Positions 28,676 through 43,286 of a stretch of 64,000 nucleotides of DNA are shown here, in pieces. Made by a program: the position numbers and the translations under genes. The notes beneath the pieces were generated by a model that had not been told where the DNA came from, did no database searches, and was given only the letters and a program-made list of their open reading frames with translations. Positions within the stretch are counted from its first letter, which is position 1, and each line of letters starts with the position of its first letter. The stretch spans positions 1,242,501-1,306,500 of the forward strand of contig NZ_JALKBG010000008.1 of NCBI RefSeq assembly GCF_023016155.1. Reading direction: 5' to 3'. Source of the stretch: Aliiroseovarius sp. F20344. GTDB taxonomy: Bacteria; Pseudomonadota; Alphaproteobacteria; Rhodobacterales; Rhodobacteraceae.

Positions 28676-29005
28676 TCAGCTCATCGCGAGGGTCCACAGG
28701 ATTTCGCAACGCGTTCCTGTCCGACAATATGCAAAGACCGGACCATCGGCTGCTTCCATCTCGCTCCGAAACGCATCTTTCAAAGCAAGCGCATCTTCGC
28801 GTGTGGACATGGGAAGAAACGCCGTTTTCAGTCCCACGGCCTCAGCTGCAGATTTCACGTCTTCCCAATCCGGTTGCCCGGGGTCTTCGCCATCGGGACG
28901 GTTGCACATCAGCAAGGTAAAGCCTTGATCGCGGATGGCTTTTACATCCTCAACCGCGATCTGATGGCTTACCGTTATCGTGTCATCAAGTTTTCTGCTC
29001 TGCAT
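28676..29005 (-). CDS. TIGR01244/DUF442 family protein (beta-lactamase hydrolase-like phosphatase fold)
   Basis: 109 residues. The fold resembles tyrosine-phosphatase-like BLH domains: ISVSHQIAVEDVKAIRDQGFTLLMCNRPDGEDPGQPDWEDVKSAAEAVGL and the active loop FAYCRTGTRCEILW near residue 95. In other bacteria this domain is fused to or encoded beside a metallo-hydrolase (Blh) that handles hydrogen sulfide and persulfide. Here it follows such a gene by 14 bases and precedes SulP, supporting a role in sulfane-sulfur metabolism. The exact reaction is not established. Confidence 0.87.
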   Translation of the reverse strand: MQSRKLDDTITVSHQIAVEDVKAIRDQGFTLLMCNRPDGEDPGQPDWEDVKSAAEAVGLKTAFLPMSTREDALALKDAFRSEMEAADGPVFAYCRTGTRCEILWTLAMS

Positions 29006-29019
29006 TTAACCTGAACCTC

Positions 29020-29907
29020 TTACAGCGCGTTGACGGGGACTTTTAGGAAAGTCTTTCCGTCTTCATCTGCCGGCGGCATTTCACCAGCGCGCATATTAAC
29101 TTGAAGCGACGGAATGATCAGTCGCGGCATATCCAACTGTGCGTCACGCTCGGTGCGGAATTTCACAAACTCCTCACGCGTTTTGCCTGCGCCCACATGG
29201 ATGTTGTGCTCTTTTTCTTCTGCAACCGTTGTTTCCCACTGAATATCACGGCCGTTTGGGCCGTAATCGTGGCACATAAACAGACGGGTTTCATCAGGAA
29301 GCGAAAGCACTTTCTGGATCGAGTCATAAAGCTCGCCAGCATCCCCTCCCGGGAAGTCAGCACGTGCTGACCCGCCATCGGGCATAAAGAGCGTGTCGCC
29401 CACGAACCCAGCATTGCCAATCACATGCACCATACAAGCGGGCGTGTGACCTGGTGTGTGGATCGCGAAGGCATCCATGTTGCCAATCTTGTACGTGTCG
29501 CCTTCTTCGAACAAGGCGTCGAACTGGCTTCCGTCACGTTGGAATTCGGTGCCTTCATTGAAGACCTTGCCGAACACGTCCTGAACAACTGTGATCTGGC
29601 TGCCAATACCGATTTTGCCACCCAGCTGCTGCTGGATATAGGGCGCACCCGAAAGGTGATCCGCATGGACATGGGTTTCGATCAACCATTCGAGCTTCAA
29701 GCCTTCAGCCTTGATATAGGCAATGATCTCGTCGGCATGTTCAGACGAAATGCGACCTGCGGCATAGTCGATGTCCATGACGCTGTCGATCACGGCACAG
29801 GCGTCAGATGTCGGGTCCTTGACCACATAGGAAATCGTATTCGAGTCCGGCTCGAAGAAAGCTTTTACCTCGGGGACAAGGTCGGTGTTTACTGGATAGT
29901 CGGTCAT
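29020..29907 (-). CDS. MBL-fold metallo-hydrolase, persulfide-dioxygenase-like
   Basis: 295 residues with the metal motif ETHVHADHLSGAPYIQQQLGG (HxHxDH), HTPGHTPACMVHVIGNAGFVGDTLF and the late ligand region FMCHDYGPNGRDIQWETTV. This pattern is shared by ETHE1-type persulfide dioxygenases and Blh proteins, which use one non-haem iron to oxidise glutathione persulfide to sulfite. Flanked by transporters of the YeeE/YedE type, a DUF442 protein and SulP, all pointing to cytoplasmic sulfane sulfur removal. No signal peptide. Confidence 0.9.
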   Translation of the reverse strand: MTDYPVNTDLVPEVKAFFEPDSNTISYVVKDPTSDACAVIDSVMDIDYAAGRISSEHADEIIAYIKAEGLKLEWLIETHVHADHLSGAPYIQQQLGGKIGIGSQITVVQDVFGKVFNEGTEFQRDGSQFDALFEEGDTYKIGNMDAFAIHTPGHTPACMVHVIGNAGFVGDTLFMPDGGSARADFPGGDAGELYDSIQKVLSLPDETRLFMCHDYGPNGRDIQWETTVAEEKEHNIHVGAGKTREEFVKFRTERDAQLDMPRLIIPSLQVNMRAGEMPPADEDGKTFLKVPVNAL

Positions 29908-29947: not shown

Positions 29948-30391
29948 TTAGCTAGCAGTAACAGCGTCGCGTTTTGCTGCGGTGCGCTGGATCATGAAGC
30001 GCGCAATGAAGATGCCCGCGATTAAGGATGCTGTGAAAATCAGCACGTCAGGGTTCCCGGTCGAGATCACTGGAAGTGATGCCCCAGGGCAGAAACCGGC
30101 CAGACCCCAACCCAATCCGAAGGTGAAGGATCCCCCGACCAGTCGGCGGTCGATCAGTTTGGTGCCGGGCAAAGTGAAGGCGTTGCCAAAGACAGGCTTC
30201 GGACCTTTCAAAACCAAGAAATAGCCGGGTGCTGTGACCAGAATGGCCGCCCCCATCACGAAGATAAGGCTAGGATCCCAGATCCCTGCAAAATCGAAGA
30301 AGTTCAGGACTTTGGCCGGATTGGCCATGCCCGAGATTGAGATACCAAGGCCGAAGATCAGGCCGATGACATAGATGACGATCAAATGCAT
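29948..30391 (-). CDS. half-size YeeE/YedE transporter subunit (DUF6691-like)
   Basis: 147 residues, about four hydrophobic segments. Motifs include YVIGLIFGLGISISGMANPAKVLNFFDFAG and GLGWGLAGFCPGASLPVIST, the latter with a cysteine in a membrane loop. Half-size YeeE/YedE pairs (PmpA/PmpB type) are thought to carry sulfane-sulfur compounds such as thiosulfate or polysulfide. Twelve bases follow the partner gene, so the two probably form one heteromeric channel. Confidence 0.88.
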   Translation of the reverse strand: MHLIVIYVIGLIFGLGISISGMANPAKVLNFFDFAGIWDPSLIFVMGAAILVTAPGYFLVLKGPKPVFGNAFTLPGTKLIDRRLVGGSFTFGLGWGLAGFCPGASLPVISTGNPDVLIFTASLIAGIFIARFMIQRTAAKRDAVTAS

Positions 30392-30403
30392 GTCGGTCCC
30401 TCC

Positions 30404-30838
30404 TTAAAAGCCCAAGATGTGGCGGGTTATGAACACCATGATGGTGATCCCTGCCATGAAGCTGAGCGTCGCGACGAAGCTGCGCGGTGACAAGCGCGAC
30501 ATGCCGCAAACACCGTGACCTGATGTACAGCCCGACCCGTAGGTCACGCCGATACCAACAACGACACCGCCGATGATCATCGACAGGGTGCTTACGGGCA
30601 CTTGAATGGCCGGAAAGCTTCCTGTCATGAAGAGGTAGACGAACGGACCGGTCAGCATGCCCGCAAGGATCGCAGCGCGCCATGCCCAGTCGGCAGAGCT
30701 GTTTGGCTGCAAAAATCCGGCCAGAATGCCCGTTGCCCCCAGCACGTTGCCGCGCACCCACATTAACAGGACAGAAGCCAGCCCGATCAGAGCGCCCCCT
30801 ACTGTTGCCGCCAGCGGTGTGAATTCAGTTTCAATCAT
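30404..30838 (-). CDS. half-size YeeE/YedE transporter subunit
   Basis: 144 residues from the ATG at 30838 (MIETEFTPLAATVGGALIGLAS). It carries the YeeE/YedE cysteine motif GVTYGSGCTSGHGVCGMSRLSPRSF near residues 95-120 and about four hydrophobic segments. First gene of the operon running to the SulP gene at 26895. An exact ATTC-N8-GAAT palindrome sits 71 bases upstream (30909-30924), which implies control by an SqrR/SoxR-type sulfur sensor. Confidence 0.9.
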   Translation of the reverse strand: MIETEFTPLAATVGGALIGLASVLLMWVRGNVLGATGILAGFLQPNSSADWAWRAAILAGMLTGPFVYLFMTGSFPAIQVPVSTLSMIIGGVVVGIGVTYGSGCTSGHGVCGMSRLSPRSFVATLSFMAGITIMVFITRHILGF

Positions 30839-30908: not shown

Positions 30909-30924
30909 ATTCACTTTTTTGAAT
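30909..30924. promoter_or_regulatory. SqrR-type operator ATTC-N8-GAAT upstream of the YeeE/YedE operon
   Basis: ATTCACTTTTTTGAAT, the centre of a longer palindrome ACATTCA-N6-TGAATGT. It matches the ATTC-N8-GAAT consensus known for the persulfide-responsive repressor SqrR of Rhodobacter. It is 71 bases from the operon's first ATG, on the promoter side of a terminator. Confidence 0.75.
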
Positions 30925-30954
30925 GTTTTTTTACTTCCCCTCGCGTCAAGCAAA

Positions 30955-30989
30955 AAGGCCCCGCACGTCATAGCGACATGTGGGGCCTT
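30955..30989 (-). terminator. terminator after the DUF302 gene, symmetric
   Basis: Stem AAGGCCCC / GGGGCCTT extended by a partly paired inner helix, flanked by A5 on the left and T5 on the right, so it can act on either strand. It follows the DUF302 stop by 21 bases and insulates the downstream YeeE/YedE operon. Confidence 0.8.
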
Positions 30990-31010
30990 GTTTTTCAAGC
31001 CAAATCGACT

Positions 31011-31472
31011 TTATTCCGCAACGGCTTCCTGAACAATTCCATCCAGCAAAGCCTGCACTTTTTGCATTTCGCCTTCGGGATAGGTCCGGTAACCCACCCG
31101 AACATCACCATCTATATCGGTGACATAAATGCTGTAGGGGCAGAACGAGATATTGGCTGCGTCCGCCTCCATCACTTCACGGCTTACTGTCGCTGAGCAA
31201 AATAGGAAAATATCGGCCGCTTCAAAGATCTTCACGTCTGATCCGACGTCCCCCTTGGTGCGCTCAAGCATATCGCCTGTGTGGCTGACATAGTCTATCA
31301 CCAGCCCCTGCCCCACAATGGCCGATTCAACAGCGAAAGTGGCGTCATCAAAGCTTCCGTCAAAAGCGTAGGTGACAGCATGATCTGACATTTGCTTCCC
31401 ATGGCCGTCGGCAAAAGCTGGGGCCATTCCTGCTGCGGCAACAACCAGTGCCGCGCCTATCATCTTGCGCAT
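31011..31472 (-). CDS. periplasmic DUF302 domain protein
   Basis: 153 residues. A signal peptide (MRKMIGAALVVAAAGMAPAF then ADG) precedes a DUF302 domain (VTYAFDGSFDDATFAVESAIVGQGLVIDYVSHTGDMLERTKGDVG...FLFCSATVSREVMEADAANISFCPYSIYV). Two cysteines lie in FLFCSAT and SFCPYSI. DUF302 proteins are often found near sulfur-oxidation genes but the function is unproven. GAGGAAG sits before the ATG at 31472. It has its own ATTC-N8-GAAT box 93 bases upstream and a terminator after it, so it is a monocistronic member of the sulfur regulon. Confidence 0.87.
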   Translation of the reverse strand: MRKMIGAALVVAAAGMAPAFADGHGKQMSDHAVTYAFDGSFDDATFAVESAIVGQGLVIDYVSHTGDMLERTKGDVGSDVKIFEAADIFLFCSATVSREVMEADAANISFCPYSIYVTDIDGDVRVGYRTYPEGEMQKVQALLDGIVQEAVAE

Positions 31473-31509
31473 TCGTCTTCCTCCTGAATTGAGGGCCGTT
31501 CGCGCCAAG

Positions 31510-31547
31510 CCCGTTTACGTGAAACGGGGCCCGGATGTCCGGACCCC
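31510..31547 (-). other. two competing hairpins in the DUF302 leader
   Basis: One stem pairs CCCGTTT with AAACGGG (31510-31528); the other pairs GGGG plus CCGGA with TCCGG plus CCCC (31526-31547). They share the G-rich bases 31526-31528, so only one complete stem can form at a time. They lie between the operator at 31565 and the DUF302 start and could be a terminator for soxF read-through or a leader structure. Confidence 0.4.
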
Positions 31548-31564
31548 GCGTTCACTTTCAACAT

Positions 31565-31580
31565 ATTCGCCATTGCGAAT
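31565..31580. promoter_or_regulatory. SqrR-type operator ATTC-N8-GAAT upstream of the DUF302 gene
   Basis: ATTCGCCATTGCGAAT; the full palindrome is ATATTCGC-CATT-GCGAATAT with perfect 8-base arms (31563-31582). It is just downstream of the soxF stop and 93 bases from the DUF302 ATG. Confidence 0.75.
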
Positions 31581-31593
31581 ATTGGCAAGCTGA

Positions 31594-32868
31594 TCAGCCA
31601 AACATGTCCGAGGTGATCCCGGCATACCAGCCAACGCTTTCCTCGTAAGTGGCCTGGCGCAGCTCTGCATCCTCACCCACTTTGCTGATGAACCCGTCAA
31701 CCTTGGCGATTTTCTCGTCCGTGGCTTCGTAGCTCGCGCCAACTTTCACACCGTCATTGGTGTCAATCAGCGACCAACAAGTGTTGGTGAACTTGGCCGG
31801 GAATAGCTTCGATCCGGTCAGTGCCGAACGCACGGCCATTGCGGCCACTTTCGCTTGACTATTGGCGGAGAAGCCTGATTTCGGCATATCGCCTTGCGAA
31901 CTTGCGTCGCCCAGAACGTGAATGTTTTCATCAACACGCGATTGCATCGTGTGCGGATTCACAGGCGCCCAGTTGCCTTCGGTGATACCAGCCATGTCGC
32001 AGATCTTGCCTGCCTTCATCGCTGGGATGACGTTACAGACATCTACCTTGTTTTCTTCACCGTCGATGGTGACCGTCATGTCATGTGGGTTCACAGACAC
32101 ATTGCCGCCACCGAAGTCGCCGCCAATCCAGTCGATCATACCGTCGTAGTGACGCGACCAACCATCCTGGAACAGAGCCATTTTCGAGAACTTCTCTTTC
32201 GGGTCAGCGATGATAATCTTCGCTGTCGGGTTCTTTTCCTTCAGGATATGCGCGATCATCGAAATCCGCTCATACGGCCCAGGAGGGCAGCGGAACGGGT
32301 TGGGCGGCGCGACCATGGCGAAGGTGCCGCCTTCTGGCATGGCTTCAACCTGAGCTTTCAAAAGCTCGGATTGCGATCCAGCTTTATAGGCATGCGGCAT
32401 GGCGTTCTGATGGCTGATGTCCCAGCCTTCAACCGCGCCATCAACAAAGTCGATACCCGGCGACAAGACCAATCGGTCATAGTTCAACATGGCCCCGCCA
32501 GCGAGCGACACAGTGCGTGCCTCGCGGTTGATATCAATCGCCCAGTCATGCACAACGTTGATGCCGTATTCCGATGCCAGCTTGCCATAGCTGTGCGCGA
32601 TCGAGCCCAGCTCGGTGAAGCCCGCCATATAAAGGTTCGAGAAGAAGCAGGTGTAATAACTGCGGGTCGGCTCGACCAGCGTGACTTCGATCTCGCCCTT
32701 GCTGTCCTTGGCAATATAGCGCGCAGCAGTTGCACCACCGGCACCGCCACCGATCACAACGACCTTAGGCTTACCGTGACCGGCTGCGTGAACCATTGGT
32801 GCGGACAGAGTGGTAGCTGCCGCACCGGCGGCTGCACCACCCATGAATAAACGTCTGTTAAGTTTCAT
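31594..32868 (-). CDS. soxF: SoxF, flavocytochrome c sulfide dehydrogenase flavoprotein
   Basis: 424 residues. A Tat signal (NRRLFMGGAAAGAAATTLSA) exports it folded with FAD. The Rossmann motif VVVIGGGAGGATAARYI follows, then the region SYYTCFFSNLYMAGF containing the cysteine likely to bind FAD covalently in this family. Further cysteines in FRCPPGPYER and GKICDMAGI may be the redox disulfide. With SoxE it oxidises sulfide in the periplasm and boosts thiosulfate oxidation. GGGAGGAAAT before the ATG at 32868 fixes the start; the soxE stop lies 76 bases upstream. Confidence 0.93.
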   Translation of the reverse strand: MKLNRRLFMGGAAAGAAATTLSAPMVHAAGHGKPKVVVIGGGAGGATAARYIAKDSKGEIEVTLVEPTRSYYTCFFSNLYMAGFTELGSIAHSYGKLASEYGINVVHDWAIDINREARTVSLAGGAMLNYDRLVLSPGIDFVDGAVEGWDISHQNAMPHAYKAGSQSELLKAQVEAMPEGGTFAMVAPPNPFRCPPGPYERISMIAHILKEKNPTAKIIIADPKEKFSKMALFQDGWSRHYDGMIDWIGGDFGGGNVSVNPHDMTVTIDGEENKVDVCNVIPAMKAGKICDMAGITEGNWAPVNPHTMQSRVDENIHVLGDASSQGDMPKSGFSANSQAKVAAMAVRSALTGSKLFPAKFTNTCWSLIDTNDGVKVGASYEATDEKIAKVDGFISKVGEDAELRQATYEESVGWYAGITSDMFG

Positions 32869-32944
32869 AAATTTCCTCCCTGTTGGCCGTGAACTCGCGC
32901 ACGGCCTTCGCGTCAGGCAGACCCGTCCCGGCCCGCCTTCTGTC

Positions 32945-33652
32945 TCACTCGGCCACTTCGAAATAAGCAGCCAAAGCAGCGATCTCGTCATTTGACAAAC
33001 GCCCTGCCATCATCTGCATCACAGGATGTGGGCGGAACTTGTCTTTATAAGCGTGCATTGCGATCACGAAGTCTTCGGCGGGCCATCCGATGATACCCGG
33101 AATACCATCATTGTCACCAGAGAGCTGATGACAGGACGTACATTCCGAAGACAGGTATTCGCCATATTCCGGGTCGCCTTGGATCGCCAGAATATCTGGA
33201 TCAACCGAATGGTCGGTCCCTGCTGCGGTAGGTGCCGCTTCGGGAATATCGCCCGGATTGTCAGAGTACCGGCGCAGGAATGCCAGAAGGTCTGCGCGTT
33301 TCTTTTCGTCCTTCAAGCCCTTGTAAGACATGCGCGTATCCGAGGCGAAAGCCTTCGGGTTTTCGATGTAACGATCCAGCAAATCGAACTCCCAAACGAG
33401 CCCATCTTTGCCCATCCGCGCAAGCCCCTTGGAGTATTTGAACCCCTCTTCAGCCCCGGCGCGACGGCCAAAAATCCCGTTCAAATGCGGCCCTACACGG
33501 TTCTTTGCATCCTTGCCAACCGCATGACAGGATTTGCATTCTTTCCACAGCTTCTCGCCTTCTGCGGCGTTGCCGATTTCGTTTGAAAAAGAAGGCGTTG
33601 CGGCGCAAAGCGCAACCGTCAAACCTATCGCAGCGTTTCGAATCCTAAACAT
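32945..33652 (-). CDS. soxE: SoxE, dihaem c-type cytochrome
   Basis: 235 residues with an N-terminal signal peptide (to about SFSNE) and two haem sites, CKSCH at residues 39-43 and CTSCH at 171-175. The first domain is cytochrome c2-like (VGPHLNGIFGRRAGAEEGFKYSKGL) and the second resembles the FccA/SoxE electron acceptor of flavocytochrome c. It is the electron-accepting partner of SoxF. The gene has its own space upstream beyond the soxD terminator at 33741, so soxE-soxF may have a separate promoter. Confidence 0.92.
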   Translation of the reverse strand: MFRIRNAAIGLTVALCAATPSFSNEIGNAAEGEKLWKECKSCHAVGKDAKNRVGPHLNGIFGRRAGAEEGFKYSKGLARMGKDGLVWEFDLLDRYIENPKAFASDTRMSYKGLKDEKKRADLLAFLRRYSDNPGDIPEAAPTAAGTDHSVDPDILAIQGDPEYGEYLSSECTSCHQLSGDNDGIPGIIGWPAEDFVIAMHAYKDKFRPHPVMQMMAGRLSNDEIAALAAYFEVAE

Positions 33653-33740
33653 GGGCAGAGATTAACCTGTGAAGCGTATCCACTCAATAATTATCATATA
33701 CAAATGCATGCATTAATTGCACGAATGTTGCGCACAAAAA

Positions 33741-33771
33741 ACGGGCGTCTGGGGGATGCCCGGACGCCCGT
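33741..33771 (-). terminator. intrinsic terminator after soxD
   Basis: Stem ACGGGCGTC / GACGCCCGT with a G-rich interior; on the minus strand it ends in six T residues. It lies 20 bases past the soxD stop and separates soxBCD from soxEF. Confidence 0.85.
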
Positions 33772-33791
33772 CATAGCAGTATTGGTTCAGC

Positions 33792-34892
33792 CTACTGGCT
33801 GTGCGATTTCAGGAATTCCAAGATCGCCGCAATGTCCTTGTCTTTCTTCAAGCCCGCAAAAGACATTTTGGTGCCCTTCATGTATTTGCGCGGATTTGCC
33901 AGATAGCCGGATAGTTCAGCCTCATCCCAGACCAGACCGCCTTCTGCAGCGGCTTTCATGGGCTTGGAGTATTTGAAGCCATCAACCGTGGCAGCAGCGC
34001 GGCCAAAGACACCGTTCAGCATCGGGCCAGTGCCGTTCTTGGCTTTGTCGCCGACCTTGTGGCAAGCCTTACATTTCTTAAAGACCTTTTCACCTTTGGC
34101 GACCAGTTCTCCATCCAATGCAGCAGCAGGTGCTGCAGCCTCTTCAACCGGAGCTTTCGTTGCAGGTGCCTCTTCAGAAGGTGCTTCTGTGGCCGGTGCA
34201 GCAGCTTCAGTTGCTGCACCCGCCGTGCCCATCACAGCTTGGCTGATCGGCGTTGCGTCAAAACCCGAGTTCGGGTCGCCGGGGAAAACCACAGTTGTGG
34301 TAATCTCAACTGCGCCCGGTTTACAATCGCTCATGCAGCGGTTGGTGAATTTGCCATATTCCATCTCAGCACGATCATCGACGATGAAGCCTTCCGCATT
34401 GGGCAGAACCACATCTGCAAAAGTCTCTTTCGACAGAACGAAATCGTCGTCCACAAGGTCGTTTGAATAAAGGATGTATGCCACGATTGCGTAGACATCA
34501 TCATCCGACAGTGTACCCGCGGCACCAAATGGCATCGAACGGCGCACATAGTCGAACGTGGTCGACAGATACGGCCAATAGGATCCAACGGTTTTCAGTG
34601 GATCTTCGTGATCCAGCGTATCAGCTCCCCCGGCCAGTTTCGGCCAGTTGCCCGCGCCTTCGGCAAATTCGCCGTGGCACACAGCACAAGCGTCTGCAAA
34701 GACTTCTTCACCGGTCCAGACATCGCCCTTGCCGTCCGGCAGGTTTGATCCGTCCGGGAAAACATCCAGATCCCATGCCGCCACTTCTGCGTCCGTTGCC
34801 GTACGACCAAGGCCCAGTTTTTCGGCCATGGCAGGCGCGGCGGTCAAAGCGGCAACCGAGGCTGCCATCAGAGATTTAGGAAACTTCGACAT
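33792..34892 (-). CDS. soxD: SoxD, dihaem cytochrome c of sulfane dehydrogenase
   Basis: 366 residues, Sec signal peptide (MSKFPKSLMAASVAALTAAP then AMAEK). Haem sites are CAVCH (69-73) and CKACH (274-278). The two cytochrome domains are joined by an Ala/Pro/Glu-rich linker (ATEAAAPATEAPSEEAPATK region, about 215-260). It takes electrons from SoxC during oxidation of protein-bound sulfane sulfur. The ATG at 34892 overlaps the soxC end by 17 bases and has GGGGAGG upstream. SoxCD presence means thiosulfate is oxidised fully without sulfur globules. Confidence 0.94.
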   Translation of the reverse strand: MSKFPKSLMAASVAALTAAPAMAEKLGLGRTATDAEVAAWDLDVFPDGSNLPDGKGDVWTGEEVFADACAVCHGEFAEGAGNWPKLAGGADTLDHEDPLKTVGSYWPYLSTTFDYVRRSMPFGAAGTLSDDDVYAIVAYILYSNDLVDDDFVLSKETFADVVLPNAEGFIVDDRAEMEYGKFTNRCMSDCKPGAVEITTTVVFPGDPNSGFDATPISQAVMGTAGAATEAAAPATEAPSEEAPATKAPVEEAAAPAAALDGELVAKGEKVFKKCKACHKVGDKAKNGTGPMLNGVFGRAAATVDGFKYSKPMKAAAEGGLVWDEAELSGYLANPRKYMKGTKMSFAGLKKDKDIAAILEFLKSHSQ

Positions 34893-36156
34893 TGTTCGCC
34901 TCCCCTTTTGCATTGACGTGCCACGTCTGGATGCAGTTGTTGTGATAGATGGAATTCAGGCCGCGCACGTCGCGCAGTTGCGCCTTCGTGGGCTGTACGT
35001 ACCCAGTTTCGTCCATCGCGCGGGATTGCAGGAACATCTCGGATCCGTCCCAGTTGATGTCCAGATAGAACCGGGTCAGCGCCATCTTCTTTCCGGGTTC
35101 GGCCAAACGCGCCTCTTGCCAAGTCACGCCACCATCCAGCGACACGTCGACCGCGGTAATTGCGCCATTCCCAGACCAGGCCAGACCAGTGATGACCAGC
35201 GGGCCTTTGCCGTGCTTGATTGGCATCTGCGGGCTGGGGCTGGTCACGACGGATTTCGCATCCATCGCCCAGGTCCATTTGCGCGAGGTGCCGTCTTCCA
35301 ACGTGTCGGTGTATTTCGAGGTCTCTTCGCGGCTTTCAACCGGCTTGTCCATCACCTCGATGCGACGCAGCCATTTGACCCACATGTTGCCTTCCCAACC
35401 GGGCACAACCAGACGAACCGGATAGCCATGCTCCATCCGCAGGGCTTCACCATTGGCTTTGAATGCAACCATGCAGTCGTCCAGCGCCTTCTCCATCGGG
35501 ATCGAGCGACCGTTCGACGACGCATCTGCGCCTTCGACATAAACCCACTTGTCCTTCAGATCGCCAGCAGCATCCAGCCCTGCTTCCTCAAGTAGAGTAC
35601 GCAGGCTGACGCCGGTGTATTCCATATTGTGGATCATGCCGTGGGTGTATTGCGCACCGTTCAGCTGCGAGCCCGCCCATTCCATGCCCGTATTCGCCGC
35701 GCATTCCAGGAAGAAGGTCTGCTGCGAACGCGGGAAACGCTCGAGGTCTTCATAAGTGAACACCAGCGGCGTATCGACCAGACCGTTGATCATCAGACGG
35801 TAGTCTTCTTTCTTCAGCGTGATCGCACCCGAGTGGTGGCGTTCGAACGCGCAACCCTGCGGGGTGATCGTACCATCCAGCGCATGGAGCGGCGTGAAGT
35901 TGATCGAGCTGATCTGATCAGCCGTCAGCCATTCCACGTTGCGGCGCACAACGTCGCCTTCGAATTCAATTGGCATGCCGTAAGGCGTGGCGTCCACGCC
36001 CTCGCCCAGACCCGATGCCCATTCCTGCACTTCCGTGATCAGCGGATCACCTTCAGCTCGTGCCGCGCCTGCGGCCCCAACGGCGGCCCCTGCGGCAGCG
36101 GCCCCTTTCAGGAACCCGCGGCGCGAGGTGCCTGCCTCTTTCGTTTCATTCGACAT
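34876..36156 (-). CDS. soxC: SoxC, molybdenum sulfane dehydrogenase subunit
   Basis: 426 residues with a Tat signal (SRRGFLKGAAAAGAAVGAAG). Sulfite-oxidase fold: the Mo-coordinating Cys lies in TFFLECAANTGMEW, and the dimerisation domain follows with GHRIEVMDK-like residues (KWLRRIEVMDKPVES) and SPQMPIKHGKGPLVITGLAWSGNGAI. SoxCD removes six electrons from the cysteine-bound sulfane on SoxYZ. The gene is preceded by soxB (39 bases) and overlaps soxD. Confidence 0.95.
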   Translation of the reverse strand: MSNETKEAGTSRRGFLKGAAAAGAAVGAAGAARAEGDPLITEVQEWASGLGEGVDATPYGMPIEFEGDVVRRNVEWLTADQISSINFTPLHALDGTITPQGCAFERHHSGAITLKKEDYRLMINGLVDTPLVFTYEDLERFPRSQQTFFLECAANTGMEWAGSQLNGAQYTHGMIHNMEYTGVSLRTLLEEAGLDAAGDLKDKWVYVEGADASSNGRSIPMEKALDDCMVAFKANGEALRMEHGYPVRLVVPGWEGNMWVKWLRRIEVMDKPVESREETSKYTDTLEDGTSRKWTWAMDAKSVVTSPSPQMPIKHGKGPLVITGLAWSGNGAITAVDVSLDGGVTWQEARLAEPGKKMALTRFYLDINWDGSEMFLQSRAMDETGYVQPTKAQLRDVRGLNSIYHNNCIQTWHVNAKGEANNVEVS

Positions 36157-36195
36157 ATGTCAAACCCCCTAATTCTGGCTGTTTGGCTAATGGTT

Positions 36196-37893
36196 TCAGG
36201 CGCCCACAACCTGAACCGAATTGTTCGGATCCAGCTTGATGGTGCCTTGTTTCTTGATGTGGCTTTCGACGACATCCCAGATCTGCGGACCCTCAGTGCC
36301 TTCGTTCACACTGGCCCAGCCCGCGACCACATAGGTCTTGGCCGGATCAATTGCTTCGCCGGTTTTCAGAAGCGTCATCTCGGTGATGCGCTCGCCTTGT
36401 GGCTTGTTGATATCGATGCGGTAGCCCATACCACCGATGCGCACCATATCACCGCCCTGCTGATAGTAGGGATCCGGGTTGAACAGGTTATCGCCCACGT
36501 CTTCCAAAATGGTGTGGATGAATTCACCCGTCATTTCAGTCCGGTAAGCTTCACCGTAAGACATCGAGGTCACGTTCCAGATGTCTTCGCGGGTGATCTC
36601 CTGACCCGGCAGAATGCTCGGCCCCCAGCGCACGCCGGGTGACATGGCAATGTCAGCCTCGCGTTCTGAAATAAGCGCATCACAGATCAGGTCATCCCAG
36701 CTGCCGTTGAAGTTGCCACGACGATATAGAAGCGTGTCAGTGGTGCCGATCACCTCTTCCAGCTCGGCCTTATAGGGCGCACGCTGTTCATCGATCAGCG
36801 TGGTGATGGTCGCGTCCGGGGTGATGACATCGGCAAAAATCGGGATCAATTTGTGGCGAATGCCCATCATCTTGCCGTCGCGCACGTCCAGATCGACGCG
36901 GCTGACAAATTTCGAGTTCGAACCTGACGCGATGATGAAGGTCTGTTCAACCTGCACCGGTTCAGGCAGCGCATCATGGGTATGACCCGACAGGATTACG
37001 TCGATGCCGGTCACTTTGCTGGCCATCTTCTTGTCCACGTCAAAGCCATTGTGGCTCAGGCAGACAACAAGTTCAGCACCTGCGGCGCGCACTTCGTCGA
37101 CCATCGCTTGCATGTTTTCATCACGAATGCCGAACGAATACTCCGGGAACATCCAACGTGGGTTCGCGATAGGCATATAGGGGAATGCCTGACCGATCAC
37201 GGCTACCTTCACGCCGCCGCGCTCAAAGAACTTGTAAGGCTTGAACAGCTCGGCGGGTTCGTCCCATTCGGCGTCAAAGATGTTCTGTCCAAGGGCTGCG
37301 AAGGGCAGACCTTCAACGATCTCGTTCACCCGCTCGGATCCCAGCGTGAATTCCCAGTGGAAGGTCATCGCATCAGGCTTCAGCGCGTTCATCACATTGA
37401 CCACGTCCTGACCTTCGGTGTGATGACATGTGTAAGACCCATGCCAGGTGTCACCACCATCCAACAACAGAGCATCCGGGCGGTCAGCACGGATCGCGTT
37501 CACAACGGTCGCCACACGATCCATGCCGCCCACCTTGCCGTAAGCCTGTGCCAGAGACGAAAAGTCGTTATATGTCAATGCATAAGCGTTGGGGGAGCCG
37601 TCCTCGATCCCATAAGCTTTGCGGAAATCCGCACCGGTTACGTGGGGCATCTGGCCGTTTGCCGCGCCAACACCAAGGTTGATCTCGGGCTCGCGGAAAT
37701 AGATCGGTTTCAGCTGGGCGTGAATGTCGGTGATGTGGATCAGGCTGACATTGCCAAACGTGTCGAACTTCAGAAGATCATCTTGGGTCAAAGCCTGCTG
37801 TGCAGCCAGCTTGGCCCAATTGCCAAAGCCCGATGCGCCGTAAAGCGCAGACGCAGCCATCGAGACCTGAAGAAAGTCGCGGCGAGAAATCAT
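36196..37893 (-). CDS. soxB: SoxB, thiosulfohydrolase
   Basis: 565 residues with a Tat-like N-terminus (MISRRDFLQVSMAASALYGA). Dimanganese hydrolase related to 5'-nucleotidases: ligands are in LIHITDIHAQLKPIYF, LLLDGGDTWHGSYTCHHT, ECLSHNG-type VCLSHNGFDVDKKM and ILSGHTHDALPEP. It releases sulfate from SoxYZ-bound sulfonate. The start at 37893 keeps the twin-arginine motif at the N-terminus. It begins a new unit (soxBCD) after the soxA terminator, with a palindrome at 37945-37960 upstream. Confidence 0.95.
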   Translation of the reverse strand: MISRRDFLQVSMAASALYGASGFGNWAKLAAQQALTQDDLLKFDTFGNVSLIHITDIHAQLKPIYFREPEINLGVGAANGQMPHVTGADFRKAYGIEDGSPNAYALTYNDFSSLAQAYGKVGGMDRVATVVNAIRADRPDALLLDGGDTWHGSYTCHHTEGQDVVNVMNALKPDAMTFHWEFTLGSERVNEIVEGLPFAALGQNIFDAEWDEPAELFKPYKFFERGGVKVAVIGQAFPYMPIANPRWMFPEYSFGIRDENMQAMVDEVRAAGAELVVCLSHNGFDVDKKMASKVTGIDVILSGHTHDALPEPVQVEQTFIIASGSNSKFVSRVDLDVRDGKMMGIRHKLIPIFADVITPDATITTLIDEQRAPYKAELEEVIGTTDTLLYRRGNFNGSWDDLICDALISEREADIAMSPGVRWGPSILPGQEITREDIWNVTSMSYGEAYRTEMTGEFIHTILEDVGDNLFNPDPYYQQGGDMVRIGGMGYRIDINKPQGERITEMTLLKTGEAIDPAKTYVVAGWASVNEGTEGPQIWDVVESHIKKQGTIKLDPNNSVQVVGA

Positions 37894-37944
37894 GAGCGGT
37901 TTTCCTTGGTTATCAGCCCCTTGCACGCCTCACCCATGCTTGGG

Positions 37945-37960
37945 ATTGAATATGTTCAAT
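37945..37960. promoter_or_regulatory. palindrome upstream of soxB
   Basis: ATTGAA-TATG-TTCAAT, perfect 6-base arms, 52 bases before the soxB ATG. The half-sites resemble those of the ATTC-N8-GAAT boxes but in another arrangement; a degenerate box ATGC-N8-GAAT (37936-37951) overlaps it. Confidence 0.4.
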
Positions 37961-37965
37961 TACAG

Positions 37966-38000
37966 AAAACCCCGCCCAAGGCATGCCTGGGCGGGGTTTT
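37966..38000 (-). terminator. intrinsic terminator after soxA, symmetric
   Basis: Thirteen-base stem AAAACCCCGCCCA / TGGGCGGGGTTTT enclosing GGCATGCC. It lies four bases beyond the soxA stop and ends the soxXYZA transcript. Confidence 0.85.
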
Positions 38001-38004
38001 TGAT

Positions 38005-38853
38005 TTAGTTGCGGACCGACGGACCTTCGACCGACAGACCATTGCCGCGCGAGGCGACATAGAGTTCGAGAGCAATGAACTCTTCCGAACCTGGGCTGTA
38101 GGTATGGGCACGCGTGTCACGAACGCAGCCTTTGAAGCGCGAATGCACCCCATTCAGCTTGGCGTTCTTCAGACGATAAGTCGGGAAGCCGTTGATCTGA
38201 CCCTGCGACAGGTGGTCGGCGCGGATCATGTTGCCATAGTTGTCTTCATGACAATTGGCACAGCTCATTTCCAGCTGACCAGTGCGGGTGTAGTAGAGCT
38301 CTTTGCCCTGCTCCCACATAGCTTCTGCCGGACCGTCAATGGCCACGTTTACGGGCATGCCGCGCGACACCGATGAAAGCAGAGCTTCCATGTTGATCGC
38401 AGCGGAAGCATCATACTTCCAAGGCTCAGCGCCCATGGCGTTTTCACGACAGTTGTTTACGGCCATCTGAAGGGTATGGACCGTTTCGGCCTTATCATTC
38501 CACTTCGGATATACCGGCTTCACACCGGCCATCTCTTCGGGTTCACCGTGACAATCAGCACAGGATTTGCCCTTGGATCCTTCAACAGTGTTCCAGATCT
38601 CGATGCCTTCTTCGACGCCCAGCATGCCGGGGTTATCAAAGTCGTCCATCTGCATTTCCTGCGTTTGATCCGACCGGAAACGCCAACCAGACAGCACCTC
38701 GTCCAGAGCATCGGAAAGATGCGCGGGCGCGGCTGTTTTGGTGACAATATCGATCTCGCCATTAACGGTGAGTTCTGCGCTTTCGTCGGCCGTGGCTGCG
38801 GCTGCCCCGAAGATGGTCGAGGCAGCCAGTAAAGCTGCGATGCCTTTTTTCAT
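38005..38853 (-). CDS. soxA: SoxA, L-cysteine S-thiosulfotransferase dihaem subunit
   Basis: 282 residues, Sec signal peptide (to about AAAATADES). Two haem sites CADCH (98-102) and CANCH (198-202), and the persulfidated active-site Cys243 in FKGCVRDTRAH that ligates the catalytic haem. With SoxX it attaches thiosulfate to the SoxYZ cysteine. It keeps both haems, as in Paracoccus and Rhodovulum, rather than the single-haem type. Last gene of soxXYZA. Confidence 0.95.
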   Translation of the reverse strand: MKKGIAALLAASTIFGAAAATADESAELTVNGEIDIVTKTAAPAHLSDALDEVLSGWRFRSDQTQEMQMDDFDNPGMLGVEEGIEIWNTVEGSKGKSCADCHGEPEEMAGVKPVYPKWNDKAETVHTLQMAVNNCRENAMGAEPWKYDASAAINMEALLSSVSRGMPVNVAIDGPAEAMWEQGKELYYTRTGQLEMSCANCHEDNYGNMIRADHLSQGQINGFPTYRLKNAKLNGVHSRFKGCVRDTRAHTYSPGSEEFIALELYVASRGNGLSVEGPSVRN

Positions 38854-38877
38854 TATATATTCCTCCCTGCGCTGGCC

Positions 38878-39207
38878 TCAGCCGATGGCGATCGACTTGG
38901 TGGTGTCGTACACGTCACCATCGTCGTCATACCATGTGAATTTGAAATCACCGGCTTCATCGACCTTTGCGTCGAATTCGACGTAAGGGTTGGTCGAGAT
39001 TGCGGGCTCCAGCGTCACGTCGATGACCGACTTGCCGTTAAACTCGCAGGTGAAGCGGTTGATGATCGAACGCGGGATGAGGTTGCCCTCTTTGTCCTTA
39101 CGTTGACCCGATTCCATTTTGTGGCTGATCAGCGTCTTGATTGTCACGACCTCGCCGGCAGCTGCCGTCTTGGGGACCTTTACGCGGGGTTTTGAACCTT
39201 TTGCCAT
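38878..39207 (-). CDS. soxZ: SoxZ, sulfur-carrier partner subunit
   Basis: 109 residues, immunoglobulin-like fold without a signal peptide: it is exported bound to SoxY. The pattern KPRVKVPKTAAAGEVVTIKTLISHKMESGQRKD and CEFNGKSVIDVTLEPAISTNPYVEF is diagnostic. It starts 17 bases after soxY and precedes soxA by 24 bases. Confidence 0.96.
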   Translation of the reverse strand: MAKGSKPRVKVPKTAAAGEVVTIKTLISHKMESGQRKDKEGNLIPRSIINRFTCEFNGKSVIDVTLEPAISTNPYVEFDAKVDEAGDFKFTWYDDDGDVYDTTKSIAIG

Positions 39208-39224
39208 ATCTCTGATCTCCTAAC

Positions 39225-39641
39225 TTAGCCGCCGCAGCCGCCGATGGTGACTTTCACGGTCGATTGCGCTTTCACGAAGCTGCCATCAGCCATTTTGGCG
39301 ATGGCGACAACGTCTTGCGTTCCGGCCAGACGGATACGGGTTGAAGCAGCTTGTGAACCAGCAGCTTCACCGAAGTTGAACTGCGCCACGCCCGGGGTCG
39401 GGTTGCCAGCAGCCAACAGCAGGATCGACGCCGCACCAGGGGCATCAACCGAGATCGGAACAGTGTTGCCGTTTTCAGCAATCTCGGGCGCGGTGAGGGT
39501 GATCCCGCCTTCGCCCATGTCTGCGCCACCAGTGAAGGCCGCGATGGCCTCGTCTGCAGCAGCAAGTGCGCGCATTGGCAACATGGCAACGGCGGTCGCG
39601 CCGAGCCCAAGCGCCAGAGCATCACGTCGAGTGAATTTCAT
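39225..39641 (-). CDS. soxY: SoxY, covalent sulfur carrier
   Basis: 138 residues with a Tat signal (MKFTRRDALALGLGATAVAM) and the swinging-arm C-terminus GGCGG, where Cys136 carries the sulfur intermediates throughout the pathway. The body (ITLTAPEIAENGNTVPISVDAPGA) is the SoxY sandwich. Coupled in one operon with soxX upstream (38 bases) and soxZ downstream. Confidence 0.97.
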   Translation of the reverse strand: MKFTRRDALALGLGATAVAMLPMRALAAADEAIAAFTGGADMGEGGITLTAPEIAENGNTVPISVDAPGAASILLLAAGNPTPGVAQFNFGEAAGSQAASTRIRLAGTQDVVAIAKMADGSFVKAQSTVKVTIGGCGG

Positions 39642-39679
39642 CTCTTGTCTCCTGTGAGTGTTTTCTGTGCCGGATCCGC

Positions 39680-40153
39680 TCAGTCTTTGAGCGTCATCAG
39701 ATAGGCCACAACATCTTCAATCTGCTGAGCACTCAGCAGCGGTTCGACGTCACCTTCATGGGCTTTGCCTGTGTAGGCTTTGCCAAGGCGAATGAAGCCT
39801 TCCGTTTTGTAGAACGACGGCATGACCGATTCATCAAAAGTCATTTTTGCGTCTACAATGATGCCGCGCAGCTCTGCTTCGCTCCAGCGGTCGCCTGCCC
39901 CGTCCAATATCGGGCCGACTTCACCGTGGAACGGCACATCTGCCTGATCCGTGATTTCATGACATGCAACGCAGTTACCCTGCGATTTTGTCGTTACGAC
40001 TTTAGCGCCTTCTACAGGATCCCCTGCAGCGCCAGTCAGCGATTGGGCGACAGCCCCTTCTTCGAAAGCGACAGAGGTGGGTGCCACCGTCTCGGCTTGC
40101 GCCGCTCCTAGCCCTGCAAGCAGAGCGCAAAGCGTGATCGTTGTCCGCTTCAT
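39680..40153 (-). CDS. soxX: SoxX, monohaem cytochrome c of the SoxAX complex
   Basis: 157 residues from the ATG at 40153, with signal peptide (MKRTTITLCALLAGLGAAQA). One haem site CVACH at residues 61-65; the likely axial Met is in MTFDESVMPSFYK. It receives electrons released when SoxA links thiosulfate to SoxY. First gene of soxXYZA, with GGGAGGAAAC before the start and an exact SqrR-type box 63 bases upstream. Confidence 0.94.
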   Translation of the reverse strand: MKRTTITLCALLAGLGAAQAETVAPTSVAFEEGAVAQSLTGAAGDPVEGAKVVTTKSQGNCVACHEITDQADVPFHGEVGPILDGAGDRWSEAELRGIIVDAKMTFDESVMPSFYKTEGFIRLGKAYTGKAHEGDVEPLLSAQQIEDVVAYLMTLKD

Positions 40154-40449
40154 GTTTCCTCCCATAACCGTTGTTCGATCAAACTACTCACATGAAGCAA
40201 TTTTCGCAATATCAAATTCGGTTATTTGAATTATTATGAGGCAAGCGCGAAATATCATTGCGCTGCAAGTGCAAAAAATGCTGCGGACGCGCTACGCATG
40301 CCATTGTATGCATTGGGAAAATCCCGTTGATCGGCCCAACAGGGGCATCTGATCAACATCCATCCGCATGATCTGCTTCGAAGATCATATTCCGGTAAAC
40401 GAACAGTCGCGCTGCCGAAATTGCCTAAATCCGATTCCGTATCGCTTGG
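40154..40449. other. 296-base sox control region between soxX and soxV
   Basis: Lies between the soxV stop and the soxX start, both on the minus strand. It contains the ATTC-N8-GAAT palindrome at 40216-40231 and an adjacent TTGATA (minus strand, 40210-40215) that could be a -35 element. The rest shows no gene or clear terminator. Confidence 0.6.
40216..40231. promoter_or_regulatory. SqrR-type operator ATTC-N8-GAAT upstream of soxX
   Basis: ATTCGGTTATTTGAAT, within AATTC-N8-GAATT; overlapping arms TCAAAT-N6-ATTTGA also pair. It lies 63 bases from the soxX ATG and touches a possible -35 hexamer, so a bound repressor would block RNA polymerase. Confidence 0.75.
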
Positions 40450-41187: not shown

Positions 41188-41212
41188 GAGGGGTTCCTTG
41201 AATTCACAACAT

Positions 41213-41237
41213 ATTCAATTTATCTATTGCATTGAAT
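41213..41237. promoter_or_regulatory. inverted repeat in the soxV-soxS divergent promoter
   Basis: ATTCAAT-N11-ATTGAAT, perfect seven-base arms in an 86-base intergenic region shared by soxV and soxS. A second small palindrome TGAATTCA lies at 41199-41206. Likely binding site for the SoxR encoded next to it; its spacing differs from the ATTC-N8-GAAT boxes. Confidence 0.55.
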
Positions 41238-41739: not shown

Positions 41740-41802
41740 AAAATGAAAGCCAGCCTATTAATACAGGCCGGTAACGGTAACGGACCACAAGGACCAGTCG
41801 GA

Positions 41803-42171
41803 ATGGCACTGCCGATCATAAAGGAAGACATGTCGCACGACGAGCTGGACAAAATGATGACCAGCGCATGCGATGCCTCAACCCTGTTGAAGGCGATCAG
41901 CCACGAAGGCCGATTGATGATCTTGTGTCATCTGGTCACGGGCGAGAAATCGGTGACCGAGCTTGAAAAGCTTCTGCACGCGCGACAAGCTGCAGTATCG
42001 CAGCAACTTGCCCGCTTGCGGCTTGAGGGTCTTGTGACACCGCGCCGTGATGGCAAAACCATCTACTATTCTCTGACAGATGATCGCCCCCGGCGCATTC
42101 TGGAAGTGATCTACGAGCTGTTCTGCTCAATCGACACTCCGCCCGAGGAAGAACGCAAAGCGGCTGAGTAA
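41803..42171 (+). CDS. soxR: SoxR, ArsR-type sulfur-responsive repressor (SqrR/BigR group)
   Basis: 122 residues from the ATG at 41803, which has AAGGA nine bases upstream. The winged helix is HEGRLMILCHLVTGEKSVTELEKLLHARQAAVSQQLARLRLEGLVTPRRDGKTIYYSL. Cysteines 42 (MILCHL) and 108 (ELFCSID) are 66 residues apart, as are C41 and C107 of SqrR, which form a tetrasulfide link on exposure to persulfide; a third Cys is at SACDAS. Alternative starts are 41743 (three bases after the small ORF) and 41830. It probably represses the sox units and reads sulfane sulfur. Confidence 0.9.
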   Translation: MALPIIKEDMSHDELDKMMTSACDASTLLKAISHEGRLMILCHLVTGEKSVTELEKLLHARQAAVSQQLARLRLEGLVTPRRDGKTIYYSLTDDRPRRILEVIYELFCSIDTPPEEERKAAE

Positions 42172-42227: not shown

Positions 42228-43286
42228 ATGTTCGACTGGATCAGCGACGCCAACCTAGCCGCGCTTGTCGGATTGGTCGGAGGTATTCTGCTTGGCCTGT
42301 CAGCCCGTTTGGGGCGGTTTTGCACGTTGGGCGCCATCGAAGATGCCCTCTATGCCCGATCAGGTCTGCGGCTTCGCATGTGGGGTGTCGCCATTGGCGT
42401 TGCCATGATTGGCACACATATTCTGATCGCGGCCGGACAGGTGCCTGCGGCCGAGGCTGTCTATCTTAGACTTGGTTGGAACCCAATCGTATCCATCGTT
42501 GGTGGGTTGCTGTTTGGGTATGGGATGGCGATCTCGGGCAATTGTGGATTTGGCGCGCTGGCTCGACTTGGCGGCGGGGACCTGCGGTCCTTTGTGATTG
42601 TGCTGGTGATGGGATTGTCCGCCTATGTCGCGATCTCTGGCCCCTTATCTGGATTGCGCGTTGCGTTGTTTCCAGAAGTTGAGGCAGATCCCAATGCCAT
42701 CCCCTCCATCGCATTTGGGCTGGAACGCGTGACCGGAGTAACGGCTGCACAGATCGGCATCGGATTTGGCGTGGTTTTGCTGGCCGCAATGCTTGCCAAC
42801 CGTGAGCTGCGCCAATCCTGGAACGAGCTTTTCTGGGCGGCCATTGCAGGGCTGGCCGTGATCATTGGCTGGGCGGGAACCGCTTGGGTCTTCGCCAATG
42901 GTTTCTCAAGCATCCCTGTGGAAAGCCACACATATTCTGCCCCACTGGGGGATATGATGATCTATTTGATGACCTCGTCAGGGAACAATCTGAATTTCGG
43001 CGTCGGGTCTGTTGTTGGCGTTCTGGCCGGTGCCTTTATCGGAAGCTTGTTCAAAGGCCACTTCCGCTGGGAAGCCTGCGAAGACCCCCGCGAATTGAAG
43101 CGCCAGATCGTCGGTGCTGTGATTATGGGGATCGGCGCTGTCATTGGATTTGGCTGTTCCATCGGACAAGGCCTGTCGGCGTTTTCGATCCTTTACTACG
43201 GCGCACCCGTGACCTTTCTGGCCATCCTCGCAGGCGCGGCACTTGGGCTACGCCAACTGATTTCGGGCTTTGCAGTGGCCGAATGA
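42228..43286 (+). CDS. full-length YeeE/YedE family transporter (thiosulfate uptake type)
   Basis: 352 residues, about nine to ten hydrophobic segments in two repeats. Cysteine motifs RLGRFCTLGAIEDAL, GMAISGNCGFGALARLGGGDLRS and GFGCSIGQGLSAFSILYYGAPVTF match TsuA-like thiosulfate permeases, where such cysteines pass the anion along the channel. The ATG at 42228 has GGGAGG before it. It follows soxR by 56 bases without a terminator, so it is likely in the soxSR transcript. Confidence 0.9.
   Translation: MFDWISDANLAALVGLVGGILLGLSARLGRFCTLGAIEDALYARSGLRLRMWGVAIGVAMIGTHILIAAGQVPAAEAVYLRLGWNPIVSIVGGLLFGYGMAISGNCGFGALARLGGGDLRSFVIVLVMGLSAYVAISGPLSGLRVALFPEVEADPNAIPSIAFGLERVTGVTAAQIGIGFGVVLLAAMLANRELRQSWNELFWAAIAGLAVIIGWAGTAWVFANGFSSIPVESHTYSAPLGDMMIYLMTSSGNNLNFGVGSVVGVLAGAFIGSLFKGHFRWEACEDPRELKRQIVGAVIMGIGAVIGFGCSIGQGLSAFSILYYGAPVTFLAILAGAALGLRQLISGFAVAE

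Follow-up and report, generated by a model that had tools for sequence, protein, structure and literature searches.

The window analysed here is a stretch of 64,000 nucleotides from the genome of Aliiroseovarius sp. F20344. Its sox genes, soxXYZABCDEF, were read from open reading frames on the minus strand (31594..40165), and their order is the same as in locus L017 and in many of 80 family loci, as far as the contigs reach. Beside this operon, and placed between soxS and soxT, lies soxR on the plus strand (41743..42171, with the real start probably at 41803), identified as an ArsR-type repressor gene by Pfam HTH_5 and by its relatives. The adjoining soxT encodes a YeeE-like transporter (42228..43286, plus strand; Pfam Sulf_transp, E 4e-58). 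The order soxT-soxR-soxS-soxV is found in 72 of the 80 family loci; six of the other eight are without soxR on the stretch covered and two are without soxT beside soxR.

The SoxR start at 41803, which the initial annotation of this DNA used, is likelier than 41743, because stop codons occur in the close SoxR matches of 6 of 20 relatives, all six among those that extend 5′ of 41803. The cysteine pair 66 residues apart, for which the same annotation drew the parallel with residues it named C41 and C107 in SqrR, is present as C62 and C128 (numbering from the ATG at 41743), and these align with both cysteines of the best solved relative, PDB 13ct/6o8l, with which 65 of 98 residues are identical. 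The ArsR winged helix is recognized by PF01022 (37 bits, cut-off 22) and NF033788 (80.9 bits, cut-off 55), and the BigR equivalog NF040642 gives 93.5 bits, under its cut-off of 155. SoxR was found in all 21 genomes of the genus, with both sensor cysteines kept and one recognition helix. In loci fetched by SoxB both cysteines are present in 72 of 74, the remaining two having no aligned residue at C128.

A further unit on the minus strand consists of the PmpAB-like half-transporter pair YeeE1/YeeE2 (29948..30838; YeeE1 by Pfam Sulf_transp, YeeE2 by open reading frame and synteny), a persulfide dioxygenase-like MBL protein (29020..29907), a DUF442/TIGR01244 sulfur transferase (28676..29005; TIGR01244, 106.5 bits, cut-off 85.85) and, at its end, a SulP-type anion transporter (26895..28637; TIGR00815, 475 bits, cut-off 380) that, judging from the spacing, may share one operon with the rest. 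The MBL protein corresponds to the dioxygenase half of Blh, with 380.6 bits against NF040641, under the full-length cut-off of 625.

Between this unit and the sox genes the minus strand encodes a DUF302 protein (31011..31472; PF03625, 24.0 bits, cut-off 23) with a signal peptide as judged by eye. Its Cys92 and Cys111 are invariant in 83 of 83 distinct sequences. A sequence search of solved structures gave no match; the predicted model matches the DUF302 structure 1q9u (Foldseek E 2.2e-6). A consensus scan predicts a promoter, TTGCCA-N17-TATGTT (31560..31588, minus strand), in which, over 20 genus loci, the TTG is kept 18 times and TATGTT 16 times; the scan found 7 promoters against 7.5 by chance and thus no excess. 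Folding of the gap RNA (z −4.27) points to a GC-rich hairpin in the predicted leader (31519..31555, minus strand), where most aligned relatives show a GC-rich inverted repeat.

The ATTC-N8-GAAT palindromes and their conservation

An exact scan of the window recovered ATTC-N8-GAAT at the same three positions that the initial annotation had reported, namely 30909..30924 before YeeE1 (putative operator 1), 31565..31580 before DUF302 and inside its predicted promoter (putative operator 2), and 40216..40231 before soxX (putative operator 3). The open reading frames bear out the intergenic placement of all three, and the distances to the start codons, 70 bases for YeeE1 (ATG at 30838), 92 for DUF302 (ATG at 31472) and 62 for soxX (ATG at 40153), are close to the 63–93 bases given earlier. 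The longest YeeE1 reading frame begins at an ATG at 30910, within operator 1, and the alignment of relatives favours the start at 30838. The uninterrupted arms are 7 (YeeE1), 8 (DUF302) and 5 (soxX) bases long, in line with the 5–8 bases previously noted. The count of exact matches in the window is not significant (3 against a mean of 1.46 in shuffles, with 14 of 100 shuffled windows holding three or more).

In a genus set of 21 genomes we scored the exact core per locus and counted distinct N8 spacers. The exact site is present at 20 of 20 soxX loci, 19 of 20 YeeE1 loci and 17 of 20 DUF302 loci (16 distinct spacers), and elsewhere in the genome at 19 of 19 loci of TsoY, 16 of 18 of a rhodanese, 7 of 9 of a second YeeE pair and 8 of 11 of an SQR-like gene, being absent from two, two and three loci of the last three. 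The spacer varies in the genus while the core halves stay fixed, and by distinct spacers ATTC ranks first of 256 half-sites at six of the seven units; at soxX it shares the top rank with CAAA, which is read from the same operator. In the family set the soxX site is exact at 60 of 74 loci and other spacings at 0–1 of 74. Spacings from 3 to 14 other than 8 gave no match at YeeE1 and exact matches at 0–2 loci at each of the seven units, except for N14 at genus TsoY, which is exact in 17 of 19 loci because a second GAAT lies six bases further.

Beyond the genus we looked at the 29 other genera with the most similar proteins, the genome itself being one of each best 30. Of these 29 genera, 20 have an exact TsoY site and 9 do not, and two exact tandem operators occur in 9 of 29 (loci from the best 30 of 42 TsoY matches). 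The DUF302 operator is exact in 0 of 29 (loci from the best 30 of 76 DUF302 matches); it is thus confined to this genus among the genera examined and is not a general SoxR target. From their sequences, the three window palindromes look like genuine operators of a repressor that senses sulfur, kept at sulfur-gene promoters across this marine genus.

Further gaps of the sox cluster also hold such sequences. A fourth, imperfect site before soxB, in the soxA/soxB gap (37936..37951; ATTC-N8-GCAT on the minus strand, one mismatch), had been missed by the initial annotation. Over 79 loci this gap holds an exact site in 23, with 17 distinct spacers and ATTC ranking first of 256, and a site with at most one mismatch in 60; the soxB/soxC gap holds an exact site in 8 of 57, with ATTC again first of 256. 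That the exact sites before soxB (22 of 79) and soxC (8 of 77) might be shared coding sequence was considered and rejected, since they fall in gaps. The soxS/soxV gap is the place of SoxR action in other species. Here it contains a half-site, ATTGAATATGTTG on the minus strand (41207..41219), which recurs across the genus and stands alone, the exact full site being found in 0 of 21 genus genomes; this, too, had previously been overlooked.

Matches across the genome

The initial annotation had raised the question of whether exact matches concentrate at sulfur genes genome-wide. Most of the 35 in the genome are found elsewhere, and the bare motif is therefore a weak predictor, but the letters flanking it sort the sulfur units to the top. 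The 32 matches outside the window comprise 13 in coding sequence, one overlapping a gene end and 18 that are intergenic, so that at least 13 of the 35 are coding; our conservation counts cover 8 of the 35. A longer pattern drawn from soxX, AATTC-N8-GAATTTGTTG with up to three mismatches, gave 83 genome rows, most without the exact core, and was dropped for a matrix that was trained on 58 soxX sites of other genera and scores only the letters outside the core. This matrix ranks soxX, SQR-like, TsoY, YeeE1, the second YeeE pair, DUF302 and rhodanese, in this order, as 1–7 of 35, which places all three window sites in the top seven, and all seven units are conserved in the genus. Ranked eighth is NAD-isocitrate dehydrogenase, which was meant to serve as negative control but proved unsuitable, its site being exact in 15 of 21 genus genomes; judged from this site, it is a probable SoxR target. 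TsoY scores 524.7 bits against NF047644 (cut-off 150) and has CPGV at its sole widely conserved cysteine (48 of 48). The best model for the SQR-like protein, NF049943, gives 216.7 bits (cut-off 525), and as this curated cut-off is not reached we name it SQR-like only. Among the exact matches outside the eight with conservation counts is one that lies past the gene of a Cys/Met-metabolism enzyme, on its 3′ side.

The conserved sites mark units of import, oxidation and persulfide removal, which speaks for the earlier proposal that one repressor may control all three. The regulon appears wider than the three units named in that proposal.

A putative SoxR regulon and its alternatives

We consider it very probable that the sites are operators of SoxR (from 41803), a SqrR-type ArsR repressor. 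What the sequences show is the sites with their conservation and placement, and one intact sensor; binding, repression and the response to persulfide are inferred from relatives. A reduced SoxR dimer would bind ATTC-N8-GAAT at or beside promoters and block transcription; sulfane sulfur entering the cell would then form a sulfur bridge between C62 and C128, upon which SoxR would leave the DNA. One signal could in this way turn on the separate window units, sox, DUF302 and YeeE1-YeeE2-PDO-DUF442-SulP, and elsewhere in the genome the SQR-like oxidase, the second YeeE pair, the rhodanese and the TsoY-family membrane protein, with NAD-isocitrate dehydrogenase probably under the same switch. Points that weigh against this reading are the uneven placement of the sites at their promoters, the exact site missing from the soxS/soxV gap and from some loci inside and outside the genus, the binding of YgaV to a promoter that has no such motif, and the poor predictive value of the bare motif.

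Alternatively, the palindromes could be conserved operators for a different regulator of this kind, be it a second ArsR-type protein or some unrelated dimer, and SoxR would act at sox only. A second ArsR-type protein, 35–40% identical and with both cysteines, does occur in six genus genomes, and the placement of the sites relative to promoters differs: read by eye, the DUF302 site lies in the −35/−10 spacer, the TsoY site comes after the −10, those of soxX and YeeE1 are just 5′ of the likely −35 and that of the rhodanese is further upstream, an unusual pattern for a simple repressor. We nevertheless find this alternative unlikely, as the genome holds all the sites with SoxR as its sole SqrR-like match at E ≤ 0.001, the recognition helix of the paralogues differs, and the soxX site, an expected SoxR target, has core and flanks in common with the others.

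The DUF302 site could also be an RNA hairpin, serving as terminator, attenuator or stabiliser after soxF, rather than an operator. Its arms of 8 bases around a 4-base loop, the fold of the gap (z −4.27) and the GC-rich hairpin that comes next would suit this, but the 17 exact genus sites keep the inner pairs in only 10, 9, 4 and 4, and for that reason we reject the hairpin as very improbable. Uninterrupted arms are moreover down to 4 bases in three of these 17, the three inexact genus loci are each one letter off, in the left half-site, and the GAATATGTT extension is also present in the soxS/soxV half-site and similar to the soxX flank. We give hardly any credence to chance occurrence of an AT-rich 8-letter palindrome in gaps. 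Three sites in the window fit the shuffle range, at least 13 of the 35 genome matches are coding and conservation counts cover 8; it is not the count that decides here but the conservation with variable spacers, together with the rank among 256 half-sites and the specificity of the spacing.

Relation to known persulfide sensors

For R. capsulatus SqrR the binding site has been deduced to be ATTC-N8-GAAT, and the footprint of YgaV, which also binds one promoter without the motif, contains a similar site (PMC9774250). The candidate targets described here are new ones for a known kind of regulator. Among the genes under the control of R. capsulatus SqrR are sqr and a rhodanese gene (PMC9995734). 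SoxR resembles this protein in 65 of 98 aligned residues, both sensor cysteines, the same deduced operator and putative SQR-like and rhodanese targets. It differs in that its gene is in a soxSRT cluster and that sites are also found at sox, DUF302, YeeE/PDO, TsoY and probably NAD-isocitrate dehydrogenase. The soxS-soxR-soxT order is shared with Hyphomicrobium denitrificans, Paracoccus pantotrophus and Pseudaminobacter salicylatoxidans, whose SoxR is described as repressing sox (PMC11582611).

Relatives of SoxR are reported to let go of DNA in response to polysulfide, by way of a sulfur bridge; DNA binding by H. denitrificans SoxR is stopped by polysulfide (PMC10451225, a paper from which the words ATTC, palindrom and consensus are absent), and in that species sHdrR acts as a further repressor that binds to the same set of four fragments (PMC12423496). 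Unlike in H. denitrificans, where pmpAB is described as unresponsive to thiosulfate (PMC11582611), the YeeE pairs here have conserved operators. The tie between a persulfide sensor and dioxygenase and sulfur-transferase functions recalls BigR of Xylella with Blh, as described in the literature, but here each of the two functions has a gene of its own, and SoxR stays under the BigR cut-off.

The conserved sites outline a putative persulfide-sensor regulon in a marine group that can be put to the test, and they suggest that the SoxR and SqrR regulons, elsewhere described apart, are merged here. We tentatively propose, as a possibility that we hold with somewhat less than even confidence, that one SoxR took over the role of SqrR, with import, oxidation, persulfide removal and a TCA-cycle enzyme all under its control, that TsoY, to date listed just as an orphan membrane protein resembling selenoproteins, is induced by sulfane sulfur across Rhodobacteraceae and uses its single Cys/Sec to act on persulfide or polysulfide, and that DUF302 works with Sox as its periplasmic two-Cys partner under the same switch.

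The promoter evidence would tie TsoY and DUF302, both families without assigned function, to sulfane sulfur. Compared by motif without alignment, CPGV of TsoY fits the UxxV motif of selenoprotein TsoY, the form here having Cys. Among the papers listed, a literature search on TsoY turned up no functional study, and the one paper found on the family gives neither a function nor a link to a sulfur regulator; the spread of its exact site to 20 of 29 other genera (best 30 of 42 matches) could be a first functional handle on the family. For DUF302 in sox clusters our literature search found no functional study among the papers listed; the association itself is already reported for Thermithiobacillus and Sulfitobacter, with no function assigned (PMC5037610 and PMC11034169). 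Unlike those genes, the DUF302 gene described here has its own conserved operator and a likely promoter, seen in this genus only.

Putative operators of the sox cluster

The palindrome ATTC-N8-GAAT, a putative SoxR binding site, occurs exactly three times in the window, and the sequence scan and gene map place these matches where the initial annotation had put them, in the intergenic gaps upstream of YeeE1 (30909-30924), DUF302 (31565-31580) and soxX (40216-40231). Since dinucleotide shuffles of the window contain 1.46 exact sites on average and three were reached in 14 out of 100, the count by itself is no proof. Conservation is the more informative measure at soxX, where the upstream region was usable in 74 of the loci formed by the window and 80 sox loci fetched by SoxB (closest named locus Aliiroseovarius marinus, SoxB 95%). 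The motif is exact in 60 of these 74, while any other spacing from 3 to 14 is found in none or one. Within the genus the site is exact in all 20 loci, the available stretch of the 21st genome being without soxX, and the flank consensus of 58 sites in other genera is AATTCA-N6-TGAATTTGTTG.

A fourth window site, with one mismatch, lies in the gap between soxA and soxB (37936-37951). Its half-degenerate pattern is no rarer than chance (2 in the window against 3.70 expected). The exact motif occurs in 23 of the 79 soxA/soxB gaps of the family set, and in 60 when one mismatch is allowed. ATTC, present in 23 loci with 17 spacers, leads the ranking of the 256 half-sites. By eye, a GC hairpin with trailing T's, resembling a terminator, immediately precedes the window site, which is why soxB may start its own transcript here. 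The soxB/soxC gap has an exact site in 8 of 57 loci, the window not among them; the soxS/soxV gap retains only half of the palindrome, with an exact site in 0 of 21 genus loci, and 39 of 75 soxV upstream regions in the SoxB-fetched set match the palindrome with no more than one mismatch.

The regulator

SoxR is identical to PDB 13ct/6o8l, which we take to be R. capsulatus SqrR, at 65 of 98 aligned positions. It is found in all 21 genus genomes, always with one identical recognition helix and with both members of the cysteine pair to which the initial annotation had drawn attention. A second regulator could conceivably act at these sites in six relatives, as their genomes encode another ArsR-type protein that is 35–40% identical to SoxR and has both sensor cysteines. 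The recognition helix of this protein differs from that of SoxR, however, and in the window genome a SoxR search at E≤0.001 detected no paralogue, SoxR itself being the only match. The proposal that one persulfide-sensing repressor, SoxR, controls separate sulfur units is supported by the genus-conserved sites, with binding predicted from its relatives.

In the cited papers, the deduced SqrR site is given as ATTC-N8-GAAT and a similar site lies within the E. coli YgaV footprint (PMC9774250), polysulfide releases H. denitrificans SoxR from DNA (PMC10451225), and sqr and a rhodanese are under SqrR control in R. capsulatus (PMC9995734). This type of regulation is already known; what is new is the list of targets, chiefly TsoY and the switch of DUF302.

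YeeE1 and DUF302

In the genus the YeeE1 site is exact in 19 of 20 loci and the DUF302 site in 17 of 20 (all 20 if one mismatch is tolerated). At both, ATTC comes first when all 256 half-sites are compared as palindromes with an 8-base spacer, and spacings 3-14 other than 8 give zero matches. The 17 exact DUF302 sites have 16 different spacers. That the DUF302 palindrome is an RNA hairpin rather than an operator is unlikely, because its inner pairs, counted over the 17 exact loci, are retained in just 10, 9, 4 and 4. Returning to the operator reading, the site was absent from all 29 loci of other genera with the most similar DUF302 proteins (from the best 30 of 76 matches), and in a second set of 39 only the window and one family sox locus (L017) have it. 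In the 28 other-genera loci where both genes were located, DUF302 follows soxF by 22-148 bases, so that it looks to be expressed there by read-through from the sox operon. In Aliiroseovarius, DUF302 therefore seems to have acquired a switch of its own.

The DUF302 protein has a signal peptide, as judged by eye, and its cysteines C92 and C111 are invariant in 83 of 83 distinct sequences. Its predicted structure (pLDDT 88.5) matches 1q9u, the crystal structure of a DUF302 protein. DUF302 genes within sox clusters have been reported, with trithionate oxidation as a guessed role (PMC5037610; PMC11034169); we suggest that the protein acts in periplasmic sulfur handling.

The stretch from the DUF302 operator to the start codon contains a GC-rich hairpin (31519-31555, minus strand) and, in addition, another inverted repeat; stem letters vary among relatives and the inverted repeat itself is apparently kept. 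Elsewhere in the window (28676-29907), a persulfide dioxygenase-like protein and a sulfur transferase are encoded by two adjoining genes, whereas in Blh both functions are fused.

Sites elsewhere in the genome

The 3.36 Mb genome, in which the window occupies G000:C8:1242501-1306500, holds 35 exact matches, which we ordered by a matrix built from the 58 other-genera soxX sites that scores only letters outside the eight-letter core. The order is soxX, an SQR-like gene, TsoY, YeeE1, a second YeeE pair, DUF302, rhodanese and NAD-isocitrate dehydrogenase, followed by the rest. Target labels were not set in advance, so no formal probability is claimed for the ranking and conservation, determined in the genus at 8 of the 35 sites, serves as the check. 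Exact sites are present in 19 of 19 genus loci at TsoY, 16 of 18 at rhodanese, 7 of 9 at the second YeeE pair and 8 of 11 at the SQR-like gene, where the three misses are only 37–67% identical and may be non-orthologues. The expected concentration upstream of sulfur genes does not hold for the matches as a whole: a simple codon-score gene finder assigns 13 of the 32 outside the window to coding sequence and 18 to gaps between genes, while one lies over the end of a gene. As predicted from these sites, the regulon is bigger than the initial annotation proposed.

The TsoY locus (G000:C3:73610-76625) codes for a membrane protein of 401 residues, which scores 524.7 with the family model (cut-off 150). 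Among 29 loci of other genera with the most similar proteins (from the best 30 of 42 matches), 20 have an exact site just 5′ of the start codon, in tandem in nine, 24-25 bases apart. The only widely conserved cysteine lies in CPGV (48 of 48), which fits, as a motif with positions not aligned, the UxxV listed for selenoprotein TsoY in PMC13188914. A literature search found no paper on TsoY function among those listed. In one other genus (L322), an SQR-like gene adjoins a tsoY that is without an exact site.

Judged by eye, the putative operators take different places relative to predicted promoters. In this genome that of TsoY begins two bases past a TATAAA box, those of soxX and YeeE1 end a few bases upstream of the likely -35, and that of rhodanese lies farther upstream of a TTGACC-TATATC pair. 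At DUF302 the predicted promoter TTGCCA-N17-TATGTT spans the operator, with TTG in 18 and TATGTT in 16 of 20 genus loci.

Isocitrate dehydrogenase, taken as a negative control, failed as such, since its site is exact in 15 of 21 genus genomes, with ATTC first by distinct spacers and second by loci. This suggests a possible link between central metabolism and sulfur sensing. The site (G000:C3:486810-486825) lies in the gap between the dehydrogenase gene and a divergent ribokinase-like gene. The SQR-like gene (G000:C6:366722-369737) is likewise divergent from its neighbor, an aconitase-like gene named by eye, with the operator in their common gap.
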